From assembly GCF_029936995.1 (NCBI RefSeq), contig NZ_JAPYRE010000001.1:310001-374000 (forward strand): a DNA stretch of 64,000 nt. Direction: 5' to 3'. A program made the position numbers and the translations under genes. The stretch is from Henriciella sp. Lineage in GTDB: Bacteria; Pseudomonadota; Alphaproteobacteria; Caulobacterales; Hyphomonadaceae. Shown here in pieces: positions 4,907 through 57,675 of this stretch. The notes beneath the pieces were generated by a model. The model was not told where the DNA came from. It did not search any database and worked only from the letters and a program-made list of their open reading frames with translations. Within the stretch, counting starts at the first letter, position 1; every line of letters starts with the position of its first letter.

Positions 4907-6589
4907 CTAGATACCCGACCCGTCGAACCAGACATCCATCATGATGTCGACGAGCTGTGCTGTGCGTGCGCGTACGTCTTCAGGGGTCCACGTGTTGCGG
5001 TGGCGCAAATCCTCGGTCAGCGCGAAGACGCGCGCACCATCCCCGAAAAAGATTTTCTTCTTTTCCCGGAAATCCAGCCGGTCGGCGCGGTGATTGACCT
5101 GCTGGGGCACGATCACGAAATTGCCGAGTGTTTCGCAGAGTTCGCGCTGGACATGGAGGTTTGGCCAGGTGGTGTTCCAGTAGGAGCCATCTGGAACGGC
5201 CCGCGGCAGGACATGCTCGACAGTGGCATCGTCCTCCAGCGTGATCGCCTCGCCGTTTTCCAGGGCGGCATTGACGCGCAGCACGATGGCCCGGCGCTGG
5301 CCGAAGGTTGCATAACGCCCCATCATGCGCTCGCGCACTTTCTTGCGTTCATCCTTCGAGAAGCGCAACGGGCTGCTCTTTTCAAACAGGGGTTTGCCAT
5401 TGAGAATCAACTGGGTGAGCTTCTGGTAGCGCTTCTGGCGTGCCCCGGCCGTCGTGAAGTTCAGCATCATGGCGAAAGCGAGCCGCTCAAGCAGCTGGAA
5501 GAATCGCAGGGTCTCTACCCCGTTTCCGGGATAGTGATAGAGATAGGCCACAGCCGGTACCCGCCATATCTGGTGGTCCAGAAGCCTGAGATGGTTCAGC
5601 GTGGCGCGCAGCTGCTCATTATATTCTCCGAGGTCGGTATCGCCTCTCAGGATGACGCGGTAGGCCTCGACATACAGGGGCAGCTCGGAATCGATGAAGG
5701 TCCGCGGGTCGACCCGTGAGAGAACCGCCTTGGCAAACACATTGGCGGTCTTGCCCTTTGTGTTGCGGCTATAGAGCTGGCGGATGATGTGCAGGAGTTC
5801 GTCGAGGCCGCCGCCGCCAAGTGCAGCCTCATGGTCCAGCCATTCGCGGGCATAGTGGCCGGCTTCCTCGACGCTGAAATTGGCGTGCTGGAGGATTTCG
5901 GTCTTGATGATGTCGTGGCTGTTCGGGGCCTTTCCGCGCGTATTCAGGACGCGGAATACGTCGTAGCCGCCATCCCAGTCGGGCACGACGACTCGCACAA
6001 GCACGATCCGGTCGCGCACAGCATAGAACAGGTTGCGGCGCGCCTCGATGGAGAGCGCGCTCAGGATTTCGTCCAGGAAGGTGAGGTTCTTCTGCATCCC
6101 TTCATGATTGGAATGCGCGCTTGTCTCGATATCCCGGCGCCGGGTGGCGCCATCGGTCTGGACCGCCTCACGGAAGAAGGGGTTGTCGACATCGTTGAGC
6201 GTCAGCCGCCAGACGGCACTCTCCCCCAGCAAGGGCCGGGCCGGGTCTCCGATCAGGTTATGGATGCCGGACCGGATCAGCGGATCGGTTTCCAGATCGC
6301 GCAGTGTGGCAAGGATCATGGTCAGCGTTGTCAGGCGCTGCTGGCCGTCGACGACCTGAAAGCTGTGGTCTTCCATGCCGACGAGGACAACCGCGCCCAT
6401 GAAATGATACCGCCCCGTCTCGCTGGCATTCAGCAGGTCGTCGACAAGCTCGCGGACCTCGTTTTCTTCCCATGAGTAACTGCGCTGGTAAGGCGGCATC
6501 TTCAGGGCATGGCCGGGCGAGAGAATCTCGGAAAGGCCGCATTCGCGCGCCCGTATACCGGAGTCCAGGTAGGCCAGTCCTGAATCCAT
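4907..6589 (-). CDS. DUF262/DUF1524 protein, GmrSD-like nuclease
   Basis: The single 560-residue chain carries both halves of a GmrSD-type (type IV, modification-dependent) system. The N-terminal DUF262 ParB-like domain shows PPYQRSYSW (32-40), FMGAVVLV and the nucleotide-handling motif DGQQRLTTL (81-89). The C-terminal DUF1524 His-Me/HNH-type nuclease domain shows EHVLPR (about 458-463), LGNFVIVPQQVNH and a basic FREKKK stretch. In characterised relatives (GmrSD, BrxU) the DUF262 part hydrolyses NTP and the DUF1524 part cuts glucosylated or otherwise modified phage DNA. That role here is inferred. No methylase or other defence gene is adjacent, so it is a solitary candidate defence gene in a housekeeping region. 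Confidence 0.88.
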   Translation of the reverse strand: MDSGLAYLDSGIRARECGLSEILSPGHALKMPPYQRSYSWEENEVRELVDDLLNASETGRYHFMGAVVLVGMEDHSFQVVDGQQRLTTLTMILATLRDLETDPLIRSGIHNLIGDPARPLLGESAVWRLTLNDVDNPFFREAVQTDGATRRRDIETSAHSNHEGMQKNLTFLDEILSALSIEARRNLFYAVRDRIVLVRVVVPDWDGGYDVFRVLNTRGKAPNSHDIIKTEILQHANFSVEEAGHYAREWLDHEAALGGGGLDELLHIIRQLYSRNTKGKTANVFAKAVLSRVDPRTFIDSELPLYVEAYRVILRGDTDLGEYNEQLRATLNHLRLLDHQIWRVPAVAYLYHYPGNGVETLRFFQLLERLAFAMMLNFTTAGARQKRYQKLTQLILNGKPLFEKSSPLRFSKDERKKVRERMMGRYATFGQRRAIVLRVNAALENGEAITLEDDATVEHVLPRAVPDGSYWNTTWPNLHVQRELCETLGNFVIVPQQVNHRADRLDFREKKKIFFGDGARVFALTEDLRHRNTWTPEDVRARTAQLVDIMMDVWFDGSGI

Positions 6590-49911: not shown

Positions 49912-50087
49912 TGGCTTATATCTCCTGAACAGGCCCGCAAATATCATATGAGGGCTGATATTTGGCAACATAAATCGCGAACGCCCGGCGAGTTCCATGC
50001 GTACTGGCATGAAAGCCGCAGCAGACAGCGTGAAATCTGCGACTGTGACATTCCCAAATGGGCCGACTCCCTGCTAAAGGAGCTGTC

Positions 50088-50750
50088 ATGAAAAGCGCCG
50101 TTATTGTTTTCCCCGGATCGAACTGCGATCGCGATGCCCAGACCGCTCTCAGGGAGGTCACCGGCCAGGAGCCGGCCATGGTCTGGCACAAGGATGGCGA
50201 TATTCCCGAAGAGACCGATCTTGTGGTCGTGCCGGGCGGGTTTTCCTATGGCGACTATCTGCGCTGTGGGGCGATGGCGGCCAACTCTCCCGTGATCGGG
50301 GCATTGAAGCGCCATGCCGAACGCGGGGGCTACGTGCTTGGTGTCTGTAACGGTTTTCAGGTGCTCACTGAAACACGTCTCCTGCCGGGTGCGCTCCTGC
50401 GCAACGCAGAGCTGAACTTTATCTGCAAGCCACAGCCGCTGAAGGTCGAGAATGCGAATTCCGCTTTCACCAGCGCCTATGCGGGCACGAACGAGGTGGC
50501 TTTCCCCGTAGCCCATCATGACGGGAATTATGTTGCCGATGAGGAGACGCTGGACCGTCTTGAAGGTGAGGGCCGTGTGGCGTTCCGTTATGCGGGCAAC
50601 CCGAACGGCTCTTCACGTGATATTGCCGGCATCCTGTCTGAGAATGGCCGTGTCCTTGGCCTGATGCCGCACCCGGAGCGTGCCATTGGCGGGCATGAGG
50701 GCGGTTCTGACGGTCGCGCCATGTTTGAAAGCCTTCTGCAGGCTGTCTGA
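50088..50750 (+). CDS. purQ: Phosphoribosylformylglycinamidine synthase, glutaminase subunit
   Basis: PurQ supplies ammonia from glutamine to PurL in purine synthesis. The 220 residues are a class I glutaminase domain: [28 protein letters not shown], the nucleophile elbow GVCNGFQVL and the His-Glu of [15 protein letters not shown] precedes the ATG. purL begins 4.65 kb downstream instead of adjacent, and no purS is seen in the window. Confidence 0.96.
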
Positions 50751-51927: not shown

Positions 51928-52078
51928 TCCCCAGTCCCTCCGGACATGACTGTATCAGATTACCGCCTCTAAAGTAGAAATCCAGCGCCTAAATTTAATC
52001 TGTTCGAATAAACTCGCGTGCAAGACGATTGGCGGGGTAGGGAATTGTGTGCATGCTTGGCGCTCAGGGAGGAAGAGA

Positions 52079-53332
52079 ATGAAAAAAGCATATGGGGCAG
52101 TGCTATCGTCGCTCATGCTGGTCATGGCGTGCGGCCAGTCGGGCGACAGTCCGGACAATGAGGAGCGTGCCGGGGCAAAGCCGGAAGAAGCCACGGGTAA
52201 GGAAGAGACTGCGACAGTCGCTGAAGCAGATGGCAGCACTAGCGCTCAACAGGCAGATTATACCAGTATGGATAACTGGCTGTGCCATGCGAACAAGGCT
52301 GATGATGCCTGTTCCGGCGAGCGTGATTACACTGTCGTGAACGCGGATGGGGAACTGGATGTGAAGACATTCCAGGCGGCGGAGAATCCGCAAGTCGACT
52401 GCTTTTACGTCTATCCGACCATTTCAATGGACGTAACGCCGAACAGTGACCTCGATGCGGGAGCGGAGGAGAAGCGTGTCGCGGCCAGCCAGTTTGGAAG
52501 TTTCGCTGAAAGTTGCCGACTGTTCGCTCCTGTCTACAGGCAGGTGACGCTGCCACACTTGCAGACGGTCATGCGGGGCGGAGAATTCACTGCCGATACC
52601 GAGTTGGCCTTTGGCGATGTGAAGGATGCCTGGCATCACTACCTGGAGACGTCGAATAATGGCCGTGGTGTCGTGCTGATCGGACATTCACAGGGCGCGC
52701 GGATGGTCGAACGCCTCCTGCGTGAAGACGTCACTGGCAGTGAGGCAGAACAGCTGATCGTCTCTGCCATGCCCATCGGCTATACGATGTATGGGGATGA
52801 CGACACCGGCGCGGTCGGTCCGTTTGAACTCTGCACCACGAAAGATCAGACCGGATGTCTCATCAGCTATGTCAGCTTTCGGTCCGATTTTCCGCCACCT
52901 CCCGAAAGCCGCTTTGGCGTGAGCCATACCGATGGCCGCAGGGCGATATGCGTTAACCCGGCAGAGCTTTCCGGGGGTGATGGCGAACTGGATGCACGGC
53001 TTTCCAGGGCAGGCTTCTTCGGTCTGGAGAATGCCAGTTTTGTCGATGGCAGCAGTATCGAGACACCCTATGCAGCTTTGCCCGGCATGCTGTCGGCAGA
53101 ATGTGTCGAAGGCAAAAACCATACATGGCTGTCAGTTACAGTCGATGGTGATCCGTCAGACCCGCGGGCCGATGATATCTCGGGAGATGTGATCGCGCAG
53201 GGCAACACACTGCGCGACTGGGGCCTGCACCTGATCGACATGAATGTCGCGATGGGCAACCTGCTGGATATCGTGGCGGCACAGAGCGAAACCTGGTCAG
53301 CCCGTCAGGCAGCCAACGAAGCTGAAAACTAG
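52079..53332 (+). CDS. DUF3089 alpha/beta-hydrolase lipoprotein
   Basis: This 417-residue protein has an excellent GGGAGGA ribosome-binding site. A signal and lipobox MAC (Cys18) anchor it to a membrane; a low-complexity Glu/Ala/Gly spacer (about 20-55) follows. The DUF3089 domain shows CFYVYPTISMD, APVYRQVTLPHL and the nucleophile elbow GHSQGARM, consistent with a serine esterase or lipase-like enzyme. The substrate is unknown. It is convergent with the permuted oxidase (12 bp between stops). Confidence 0.87.
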   Translation: MKKAYGAVLSSLMLVMACGQSGDSPDNEERAGAKPEEATGKEETATVAEADGSTSAQQADYTSMDNWLCHANKADDACSGERDYTVVNADGELDVKTFQAAENPQVDCFYVYPTISMDVTPNSDLDAGAEEKRVAASQFGSFAESCRLFAPVYRQVTLPHLQTVMRGGEFTADTELAFGDVKDAWHHYLETSNNGRGVVLIGHSQGARMVERLLREDVTGSEAEQLIVSAMPIGYTMYGDDDTGAVGPFELCTTKDQTGCLISYVSFRSDFPPPPESRFGVSHTDGRRAICVNPAELSGGDGELDARLSRAGFFGLENASFVDGSSIETPYAALPGMLSAECVEGKNHTWLSVTVDGDPSDPRADDISGDVIAQGNTLRDWGLHLIDMNVAMGNLLDIVAAQSETWSARQAANEAEN

Positions 53333-53344
53333 GCTGGCTGCTGG

Positions 53345-54475
53345 TCAGGCCTGACTGGAGAGGCGGCTGGCAAGGTCGGCATGACCTCTGACCATTCGTT
53401 CGACCTGGGCAGGGTCCGGTTCCATCCGGCTCTCGCCCATTTCATGTGTGCCGCCCAGCACGATCCCGGTCCGGCGTGGAAACATATAGAGTACGCCTTC
53501 AGAGGTCGGTGCGACGTATGAATAGTCGATCTCCGGCTGTGGCAGCAGGTGGCTCAGCTGACCGCGGATTGGCGTCAGGCTTTCATCCCCGAACAGGTCG
53601 CGTGCGCCGAGCCCGGTGCAGTTCACGATCGTGGTCTGTGGCAGCGCAAGAACGTCATCGAGTGTGTCGAGTCTTGCTGCTATGAACTTTGCCCCGGCAA
53701 GCTGGGCATCCTTCATGATGCGGTCGAGATAATAATCCGGGTCGATAATCAGCGCCTTGAAGCGCTCCATATAGTTATAGCCGAACAGGGTGTTCTCGTG
53801 GACACGCTGAAGCTCGGGATAGATGTCATCGCCGCCGGGGAGTGTATTATAGCTGCCGGGTTCCCGGCCTGAGAGCGCATGGTGATCGGACCAGTAGACG
53901 CCATAACCCGGCCGGTTCACATATGGCAGGAAGCCCTGCCGGGCCGCCCGGATCAAAACGCGGTTGCGGCGCAGAAAGTCCTCGCTGACGGCGTCATCAT
54001 CGAAATAGCCGGTCGGAAACCACAGGACGCCTGCGATATTCGAGGTGGTGTTCGGAGGAAGCTCTGCCGCATAGACGGTGACATCGTGACCGTGCCGGGC
54101 AAGCAGGAGGGCGGTGGTCAGGCCCATGACGCCAGCGCCAATTACGGCAATTTGTTCATTGCCAGTTGCCCCTGCCATGCCGGCTGCAGCTTCGCTTGTG
54201 CCCCAGCTCATTGTTACACCACAGCCGCCATGTCCGTAATTGTGAATGACGGTCTTGCTCCCAAGACGCTCGCCTTCAAGGCGATAGCCTTGGGGGCGGT
54301 AGGGCCGCAGGCCGACAACCGTGCGTGTCACGCGGTCCAGCGACGAATCGACGGGGGCGTAAGTACGTCCGGGCGTGTAAGTGCTCGGGGTGGTGGCCGG
54401 GGAGGCGGGTGTTGTCGTGGTGCAGGCGCCAAGTGTAATACCACCGAGCCCTGCCAGCATTTCGCGCCGCTTCAT
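53345..54475 (-). CDS. D-amino-acid-oxidase-like FAD oxidoreductase with circularly permuted order
   Basis: The 376 residues open with MKRREMLAGLGGITLGAC, a twin-arginine/lipobox-like leader. The block that ends canonical DAAO comes first: GLRPYRP (55-61), YRLEGE, then VIHNYGHGGCGVTMSWG (76-92). After a short linker (about 100-107) comes the block that begins canonical DAAO: the Rossmann motif IAVIGAGVMGLTTALLLA (about 109-126), NTTSNIAGVLWFP, TIVNCTGLGARDL, IRGQLSHL and finally YMFPRRTGIVLGGTHEMGE. The order is thus permuted relative to the family, while every signature is kept, so FAD binding and amino-acid oxidation remain plausible. The ATG at 54475 follows AAAGGAT; ATGs further upstream are less likely. 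Confidence 0.85.
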   Translation of the reverse strand: MKRREMLAGLGGITLGACTTTTPASPATTPSTYTPGRTYAPVDSSLDRVTRTVVGLRPYRPQGYRLEGERLGSKTVIHNYGHGGCGVTMSWGTSEAAAGMAGATGNEQIAVIGAGVMGLTTALLLARHGHDVTVYAAELPPNTTSNIAGVLWFPTGYFDDDAVSEDFLRRNRVLIRAARQGFLPYVNRPGYGVYWSDHHALSGREPGSYNTLPGGDDIYPELQRVHENTLFGYNYMERFKALIIDPDYYLDRIMKDAQLAGAKFIAARLDTLDDVLALPQTTIVNCTGLGARDLFGDESLTPIRGQLSHLLPQPEIDYSYVAPTSEGVLYMFPRRTGIVLGGTHEMGESRMEPDPAQVERMVRGHADLASRLSSQA

Positions 54476-55401: not shown

Positions 55402-57675
55402 ATGACAGACACTTCCGCTATCCTGGCCCACCTCAAGGCCGAACAGAGTGAAGCCGATGCTTCAGGCCACGGCATCAATGCCGAGGAGTGGGACCGGCTC
55501 ATCACGCGCCTGACCCGCAAGCCAAATCTTGTCGAGCTTGGCATCTATTCGGTGATGTGGTCGGAGCATTGCTCCTACAAGTCTTCGCGCCGGCACCTGT
55601 CGAAGTTTCCGACAAAGAATGACCGGGTCATCCAGGGGCCGGGCGAGAATGCGGGTGTCATCGATATTGGCGACGGGCAGGCGGCCATCTTCAAGATGGA
55701 GAGCCATAACCATCCCTCCTACATCGAGCCCTATCAGGGCGCGGCGACCGGGGTTGGTGGCATCCTGCGAGATGTCTTCACGATGGGCGCGCGCCCGATC
55801 GCGCTGGTGAATGCCCTGCGCTTCGGCTCGCCCGATCATCCGAAGACGCGCTCTCTGGTGGCGGGTGTCGTTTCTGGCATTGGGGGCTATGGCAATTGTG
55901 TCGGCGTGCCGACGGTGGCCGGCGAAACGCAGTTCGACGAGGGCTATAACGGCAATATCCTCGTCAATGCGATGGCCGTCGGTCTCGCCGATCAGGACCG
56001 GATTTTCTATGCGCGCGGCGCAACACCCGGGAACCAGATCTTCTATGTCGGCTCCAAGACGGGCCGTGACGGCATTCACGGCGCGACCATGGCATCTGCG
56101 GAGTTCTCTGAAGAGGCGGAAGAAAAACGCCCGACCGTGCAGGTTGGCGATCCGTTTACCGAGAAGCTGCTGATCGAAGCCTGTCTGGAACTGATGGAGA
56201 CAGATGCGATCCAGGCCATTCAGGACATGGGGGCAGCCGGTCTCACATCGTCTAGCGTGGAAATGGCCGACAAGGGTGGCATCGGCATCGAGATGGACCT
56301 CGACAAGGTGCCCCAGCGCGAAGAGGGGATGAGCGCTTACGAGATCATGCTGAGCGAGAGCCAGGAGCGGATGCTCATGGTACTCAAGCCCGGCAAGGAG
56401 GCCGAAGCCAAAGCGGTCTTCGAGAAGTACGATCTAGATGCCGAGGTGATCGGCATGACGACCGATACCGGCCGCATGGTGCTGAAGCAGTTCGGTGAGG
56501 TGGTCTGCGATATTCCGGTCGCGCCGCTGGCCGAAGATGCGCCGAACTATGACCGGCCATGGACCGAGCCAAAACCGCGCCCGGCCTTTGATATCTCGAA
56601 GCATCCCGAGCCGGAGGATTATGGCGAGGTATTGCTGAAGCTCATGTCGTGCCCGGATATGGCGTCCAAGCGCTGGATCTGGGAACAGTATGACCGCCAC
56701 GTCATGGGCGATACAATCGATAGCTCGCAGAGCATGGGCGACGCGGCGATCGTGCGTATCCACGGCACGAACAAGGCGCTGGCGATCTGTTCCGACTGCA
56801 ATCCGCACTATGTCGCCGCCGACCCTTATGAAGGCGGCAAGGCTGTGGTGGCGGAAGCCTACCGCAACCTCTCAGCCGTGGGCGCGACACCGATTGCGAT
56901 CACCGACAATCTCAATTTCGGCAACCCGGAAAAGCCCGCCACAATGGGCACGATCGTGAAAGCCATTGAAGGCATGGCGGAAGGCTGCCGTGCGCTCGAC
57001 TTCCCGGTCGTCTCCGGCAATGTCAGTCTTTACAATGAGACCAATGGCAAGGCGATCCCGCCCACGCCCGTGGTCGGCGGTGTGGGCCTGATCGAAGATG
57101 TCTCGAAGGTCGCGACACTGAAAGGCGCGCAGCCGGGGGACGCGCTGATCCTCATCGGTGAGACCAAGGGCCATCTCGGCGCTTCGCTCTATGCCCGCGA
57201 ATGGCTTGGCCTGAAAGGCGAGGCGCTTGGGCCGCCGCCGCCAGTGGATCTGGAGGTGGAGAAGACTAACGCCGCATTTGTGCGGGGCCTGATCGAGCAG
57301 GGGCTGGTCAATGCCGTCCACGATGTCAGCGATGGGGGCATTGCCTGTGCAGCGGCTGAAATGGCGCTGGCGAGTGGGGTAGGTGTCACGCTCGATATGG
57401 GTGAGCGCTTCGGTGAAGCAGACCGCGTGAGTGCGCTCTTCGGGGAGCGAGGGGCTGGTTACCTGTTGAGCGTGAAGGATGCAGATGCCGTGCTCGACCA
57501 GGTCGAGGCATATGAGCGTGAGATACCCAGCCTGATGCTTGGCAGCTTCGAGGCTGAACCCGTGATTGGCTTGGTGCGCGAAGTGCGTGCGGAAAAGACG
57601 GACAGAGTGAAGCTTTCTGTGCTTCGCGATGCCCATGAAGGCTGGTTGCCGCGTTATATGTCGGATGAAGGTTGA
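55402..57675 (+). CDS. purL: Phosphoribosylformylglycinamidine synthase subunit PurL
   Basis: PurL converts FGAR to FGAM with ATP and ammonia delivered by PurQ. At 757 residues it is the small PurL type that needs PurQ and PurS. Motifs are [55 protein letters not shown]-type ATP/metal site residues and [17 protein letters not shown] in the C-terminal half. AAGGAG precedes the ATG. Confidence 0.96.

Follow-up and report, generated by a model that had tools for sequence, protein, structure and literature searches.

A putative natural circular permutant of the D-amino-acid-oxidase family in Henriciella, with a predicted export leader

Is the protein encoded at this locus of Henriciella sp., in which the motifs that close a canonical D-amino-acid oxidase (DAAO) stand ahead of the FAD-binding motif, a natural circular permutant of that enzyme, and if so, how often did the rearrangement arise and what might the product do? 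DAAO, a flavoenzyme familiar from textbooks, is used in industry, in biosensing and in pharmacology. The gene (Table 1) lies in a stretch of 64,000 nucleotides that was analysed as a whole and is referred to here as the window; its product is designated P0001. The open reading frame begins with ATG and has no inner stops over its 376 residues, the start being provisional because an alternative upstream TTG would add ten residues. We favour, with a probability of roughly 0.8, the reading that P0001 is a natural circular permutant whose moved block occupies its canonical place, and which would deaminate D-amino acids after export by the Tat pathway and tethering as a lipoprotein.

Table 1. Features of the permuted gene and its product, in window coordinates.
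Feature	Residues	Position	Strand	Basis
Gene of the permuted DAAO-family protein (P0001)	1-376	53345..54475	minus	ORF, Pfam DAO, PDB matches
Predicted leader, KRREMLAGLGGITLGAC	1-44	54344..54475	minus	own rule; pLDDT <50 at residues 1-26
Moved block: GLRPYRP, HNYGHGGCG, SWG and helix	46-102	54170..54340	minus	alignments, model
GxRPxR motif	55-60	54296..54313	minus	alignments to solved DAAO and D-aspartate oxidase chains
HNYGHGGCG motif	78-86	54218..54244	minus	alignment
Join between former C-terminal helix and former N-terminal strand	103-106	54158..54169	minus	model secondary structure, length comparison
FAD-binding and substrate block, usual DAAO order	107-375	53351..54157	minus	Pfam, PDB alignments
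GAGVMG dinucleotide-binding motif	113-118	54122..54139	minus	sequence, alignment
New C-terminal helix	355-375	53351..53413	minus	model; cut after helix

Block order in the window gene and in other genomes

The preliminary description of this DNA had placed the closing DAAO motifs at residues 55-92, ahead of the FAD-binding GAGVMG at 113-118, and the translation agrees, with GLRPYRP at 55-61, HNYGHGGCG at 78-86, SWG at 90-92, GAGVMG at 113-118 and LGGTHEMGE at 340-348. Its further statement that the protein stops after the last of these motifs has to be corrected, since 28 more residues follow, of which 355-375 form a helix in the model. In a phmmer search of PDB sequences, human D-aspartate oxidase (DDO; 6rkf) matched P0001 in two separately significant stretches, residues 107-357 aligning with chain positions 13-259 (i-Evalue 1.3e-16) and residues 51-100 with positions 281-333, near the C-terminus of the chain (i-Evalue 1.9e-06), values that rule out coincidence as the source of this order. 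Each of the 17 DAAO or DDO sequences among the matches listed covered P0001 in two or three stretches, and in all four PDB alignments inspected the order was swapped, with query residues 107-357 or a shorter part on the front of the chain and 51-103 or a shorter part on its end. The Pfam DAO family (PF01266), against which the preliminary description had advised aligning the two blocks separately, likewise matched in two stretches, totalling 121.8 bits against a curated cut-off of 27.9, and a genome profile search of the window gene found profile positions 280-351 preceding 2-296 in the reading direction.

Neither block was found a second time in P0001, and the moved block occurred twice in none of the 188 scored ORFs (some of which are the same gene in two loci), which bears out the initial observation that no motif is duplicated or lost. 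According to PMC9844085, GxGxxG must stand at the N-terminus of a DAAO, while GxRPxR and YGHGGxG are common to bacterial DAAOs and also occur in some glycine oxidases. All three motifs are present in P0001 in another order, with GxGxxG (113-118) following GxRPxR (55-60) and YGHGGCG (80-86). The elements of the family are kept, none is doubled, the old termini are joined and new termini lie elsewhere, which is the sequence pattern of a circular permutant. Judged from sequence, P0001 is almost certainly a natural circular permutant of the DAAO family, as had been proposed, a conclusion supported by the two-block matches, by the recurrence of the order in dozens of genomes, by a single split in the phylogenetic trees and by confident structure models.

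To place the gene among its relatives, 62 homologs were retrieved from genome contigs by means of peptide patterns, including HNYGHGGC. The block order was permuted in 47 and canonical in 15. Among the permuted loci, one (L046) is cut by a contig end and another (L045, Nakamurella endophytica, about 5001-6070) is split over two frames with the break at one point, attributable either to faulty sequencing or to a genuine frameshift. When Pseudomonadota were sampled evenly, 20 of the 398 genomes, that of the window among them, presented a near-full-length collinear match to the permuted model, and the corresponding ORFs have the permuted order; within the window's family 55 of 105 genomes matched, each in one collinear piece. 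The order therefore recurs beyond the window, where the preliminary description had advised looking for it. An assembly or sequencing artefact joining two separate genes, which that description had named as one of two findings that would overturn it, has a practically negligible probability, given that the order is seen in isolates, metagenome-assembled genomes (MAGs) and complete plasmid records alike.

As a control, canonical DAAOs were sought in the same 398 Pseudomonadota genomes with a canonical model (A3) at E-values up to 1e-13. Of the 31 genomes with matches, 20 were those already known to be permuted; the proteins of the remaining 11 (loci L270-L280) gave no match to the HNYGHGG block and appear ThiO-like by eye. 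Two of the permuted genomes (G111 and G159) each hold a second match of the same kind. With up to five scored candidates per genome, a canonical DAAO was found in none of the 398.

Permuted members were identified in six phyla, Chloroflexota and Verrucomicrobiota being represented by one genome each. The draws outside Pseudomonadota were built around centre genomes already known to contain a relative, so that the sample is uneven, and each draw carries the phylum label of its centre locus, one genome (G398, locus L031) being placed by its protein kin. Matches were obtained in 19 of 198 genomes for Actinomycetota (one permuted, the centre, and 18 canonical), six of 199 for Planctomycetota (three permuted, including the centre, and three canonical), 25 of 199 for Acidobacteriota (16 permuted, including the centre, eight canonical and one fragment), 13 of 201 for Chloroflexota (one permuted, the centre, 11 canonical and one fragment) and two of 145 for Verrucomicrobiota (one permuted and one canonical, the centre). 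The Chloroflexota member comes from a single MAG and its protein groups with a Rhodospirillaceae row, so this occurrence could reflect mis-binning or transfer. One genome of the Acidobacteriota draw (G839) presents four collinear matches to the permuted model, and at another locus (L189) a canonical DAAO-like stretch lies within a 733-residue stop-to-stop frame that is possibly a fusion. Among mobile elements, 21 of 72,556 plasmid records matched, and of six inspected those from Niveispirillum, Rhizobium, Kozakia, Bradyrhizobium and Nonomuraea are permuted and that from Mycobacterium lentiflavum is canonical; 50,697 phage records yielded one partial match.

Origin of the order, the join and the cut

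The main phylogenetic tree comprised 127 rows, 76 permuted and 51 canonical; excluded beforehand were 16 loci that were duplicate, truncated or weak, the weak second ORF of one locus (L121) and 44 rows whose identity to another row exceeded 88 per cent. Permuted and canonical proteins fall on opposite sides of one branch (SH-aLRT 99), requiring one change of order, and a 79-row tree recovers the same split with support of 100/99. For these alignments the blocks were brought into one order by script beforehand, a step that could itself impose a junction signal and make several independent permutations at one place appear as one. We regard this as quite improbable, since trees built from only the end-trimmed C block or only the N block (57 columns) each require one change (support 99 and 90, respectively), as does every one of the 200 bootstrap trees of the 79-row set. 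The same pair of single-block trees bears on domain shuffling, that is, the fusion of an N-terminal block from another DAAO gene in front of the protein followed by loss of the original end. Shuffling could yield an identical final architecture, and duplication followed by trimming is also one of the routes to a permutation; the N block nevertheless gives the same permuted/canonical split as the C block, and no scored ORF carries the block twice, which makes a foreign origin of the block improbable. The agreement of both trees and of each block taken separately makes a single permutation event the best reading of these sequences, and very probably the correct one.

When the tree was rooted with six distant DAO proteins, leaving out two long-branch rows, some canonical rows branched first and the permuted rows stayed together. 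On this topology the permuted order probably is derived and arose a single time; support at the forks concerned ranges from 58 to 96, and three outgroup branches are very long.

The position of the old and new termini could be delimited by comparing lengths. Across the 76 permuted rows, the distance from the end of YGHGGxG to GxGxxG has a median of 26 residues (range 25-62), compared to a median tail of 20 residues after YGHGGxG in 50 canonical rows, which implies that the old ends were joined almost directly; the difference approximates the few residues that precede GxGxxG in canonical proteins. At the other end, the blocks as modelled are 12 residues apart at the median in canonical rows, and in permuted frames the median distance from the block to the frame end is nine residues. 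In the P0001 model the last element is helix 355-375 and the first after the leader is strand 49-59, placing the cut in the loop that separates this helix from the GLRP strand. The rearrangement would thus have set the former C-terminal strand-strand-strand-helix block ahead of the FAD-binding strand, fusing the old ends with few if any extra residues and opening new ones in the loop before GLRP.

A cysteine at position 85 had appeared invariant in one alignment (A1), and a special thiol was considered and dropped: the 76 permuted rows carry Cys in 37, Ser in 19, Ala in 16 and Gly in four cases. The apparent invariance is best explained by the use of HNYGHGGC as a retrieval pattern.

Modelled structure, active site and gene neighbourhood

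AlphaFold models were obtained for P0001 (pLDDT 87.2, pTM 0.86), with a leader that is disordered (pLDDT <50 at residues 1-26), and for a leaderless relative that groups with Phycisphaerae (L031; pLDDT 92.7, pTM 0.91). The moved block forms strand-strand-strand-helix in both. For each model, the 33 best PDB matches in Foldseek were DAAO or DDO entries, among them 4qfd and 4qfc, which we take to belong to these enzymes. Foldseek aligns in chain order and here fits the main block only, over roughly 260-300 columns with TM-scores near 0.6. About 44 of the 376 residues of P0001 are unable to contribute to the pTM, so that 0.86 is near its ceiling, and we would expect a value nearer 0.7 if the 57-residue moved block were unplaced; with the pTM values obtained, an unplaced N-terminal block seems unlikely.

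The active-site residues were examined in the 127-row alignment. Arg57, the aligned counterpart of the substrate Arg in the DAAO Arg-Pro pair, and Pro58 are present in all 76 permuted and all 51 canonical rows. In DAAO the substrate is held by Tyr, Arg and Gly, the latter two being Arg308 and Gly335 in the Rasamsonia enzyme according to PMC6697736, and the spacing of 27 residues between Arg57 and Gly84 of P0001 is that between R308 and G335 of this fungal ReDAAO. In the alignment used, the position of Tyr330, in the strand before LGG, is occupied by Tyr in 55 of the 76 permuted rows and in 40 of the 51 canonical ones; PMC9844085 describes the active-site Tyr as not universal in DAAOs. The conservation of residues from both blocks that are needed at one ligand argues that the moved block lies in its old place, although the Tyr position is variable. 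The block would accordingly be packed as in canonical enzymes, with R57, G84 of HNYGHGG and Tyr330 meeting at the flavin as in DAAO. On this evidence D-amino-acid oxidation is the activity that we favour for P0001, with some reserve.

A different reaction would be that of a FAD dehydrogenase, in which the exported enzyme hands electrons to quinone or cytochrome c, perhaps acting on something other than free D-amino acids, such as D-amino-acid peptides, amines or opines. The release of H2O2 in the periplasm by an oxidase would be awkward, and the neighbourhood of the permuted genes contains two features in favour of such an enzyme: a PF00144 serine hydrolase is encoded no more than four genes away in at least four of 57 loci, and the permuted gene of Kozakia baliensis has serine hydrolase genes ahead of it and a cytochrome c gene after it. 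Against it, the best sequence and structure matches are oxidases, and a CxxCH gene is the immediate neighbour of the permuted gene in one of 57 loci and occurs within four genes of it in two. We consider a dehydrogenase a tentative alternative, less likely than the oxidase that we prefer.

Gene neighbourhoods were called using a codon-position score, and in the 57 loci examined no operon tying the permuted family to D-amino acids and common across clades was found. Pfam assignments for 30 neighbours consisted mostly of unrelated or housekeeping families, some neighbours having no family; four PF00144 hydrolases, S15 and S9 peptidases and an alanine symporter among them are at most suggestive. 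On the Kozakia baliensis plasmid the genes in question (L121, 1364-7661) share one strand, with a gene for a further FAD-dependent oxidoreductase upstream. Plasmids of Rhizobium (L118, 4491-8717) and Bradyrhizobium (L122, 4363-8690) carry a leaderless permuted gene in an operon-like trio, flanked by genes for a FAD-binding oxidoreductase and a thiamine-diphosphate enzyme. In six of seven Phycisphaerae-type loci (L027, L029, L030, L031, L036 and L039) members of one gene family lie three or four genes from the permuted gene, and the L029 copy is a Na:alanine symporter according to Pfam.

In the window, the convergent neighbour at 52049-53332 (plus strand) encodes a DUF3089 domain, as read from locus L240, with a start that looks lipoprotein-like by eye, and in two other genomes of the genus a relative likewise adjoins the permuted gene. 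The stretch of the permuted gene lies between genes that are purQ-like (50058-50750, plus strand) and purL-like (55402-57675, plus strand) by eye. A gene cluster is common to 14 loci including the window, and its member in locus L001 matches the 55402-57675 gene in size and place. A promoter and terminator scan was uninformative, returning no terminator and a single promoter-like site that lies on the opposite strand.

The export leader and relation to known enzymes

Leaders were scored by a rule of our own, which asks for a twin arginine ahead of the first block with a hydrophobic stretch free of charged residues after it. The leader of P0001 is of the twin-arginine type and has a lipobox-like LGAC followed by a spacer; with the twin arginine, the hydrophobic stretch and the lipobox, the protein is a predicted Tat substrate and lipoprotein. 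Henriciella and Hyphomonas leaders share a lipobox-like L(G/S/A)AC, and TatC is encoded in the window's genome. From these sequence features Tat export of P0001 is likely: the protein would fold with FAD in the cytoplasm before export and, in Henriciella, would be tethered as a lipoprotein and act on D-amino acids in the periplasm. Most likely, therefore, P0001 is an exported, probably lipid-anchored, putative D-amino-acid oxidising flavoenzyme.

The Tat/lipoprotein-like leader claimed initially is thus present in P0001, and in most proteobacterial and acidobacterial rows, but it does not extend to the whole family. The larger permuted arm has 51 rows, 48 of them with a leader, whereas one was detected in three of 25 rows of the smaller arm (22 lacking it) and in none of the 51 canonical rows; by the same rule it was found neither in Phycisphaerae rows nor in the four-row rhizobial/Nonomuraea group, which indicates that the leader is not part of the permutation itself. 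With three unclear loci (L020, L107 and L174) left open, Fitch parsimony reconstructs a leader at the root of the permuted proteins and its absence from the canonical side, in three changes altogether; counting those loci as lacking one raises the number of changes to six. A bolder proposal is that permutation and export were one evolutionary step that opened a periplasmic DAAO branch, the leader being lost later at least twice. The chain of an ordinary DAAO begins right at the FAD-binding strand, which is buried, and a leader fused there would interfere with cofactor loading ahead of Tat export; with the C-terminal block in front, the protein would gain a surface-exposed N-terminus able to carry a Tat leader. 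We consider this scenario doubtful.

P0001 shares with DAAO and DDO (6rkf, 8hy5, 1kif, 7ct4) both blocks, the FAD motif, the GxRPxR and YGHGGxG-type motifs, the substrate Arg and a similar fold, and the permuted family differs from them in its swapped blocks, its new termini before GLRP and, in many members, an export leader. Canonical bacterial DAAOs (51 rows) have GxRPxR and YGHGGxG in common with permuted proteins but lie on the other side of the tree branch, with an N-terminal GxGxxG and no leader; PMC9844085 names those of A. protophormiae, R. xylanophilus and S. coelicolor. The DAO superfamily fold is common to P0001, glycine oxidase ThiO and other members of PF01266, but P0001 scores 56.5 bits on the ThiO model against a cut-off of 250.8. 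Searches of open-licence PMC papers returned no report of a permuted DAAO, and the term "permut" is absent from PMC9844085. Within the literature searched, the fold and family are known, and the permuted subfamily, its apparently single origin and its link to export appear undescribed.

The N-terminal FAD fingerprint is used for recognising DAAOs (PMC9844085), and the permuted family falls in an annotation blind spot, the three inspected plasmid genes with an annotation being labelled FAD-dependent oxidoreductases. A natural permutant of apparently single origin suggests that the DAAO fold tolerates a cut before the substrate-binding strand, and the family may offer ready-made scaffolds for engineering. 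It would also exemplify a permutation that falls, on the tree, at the same point as the acquisition of an export signal.
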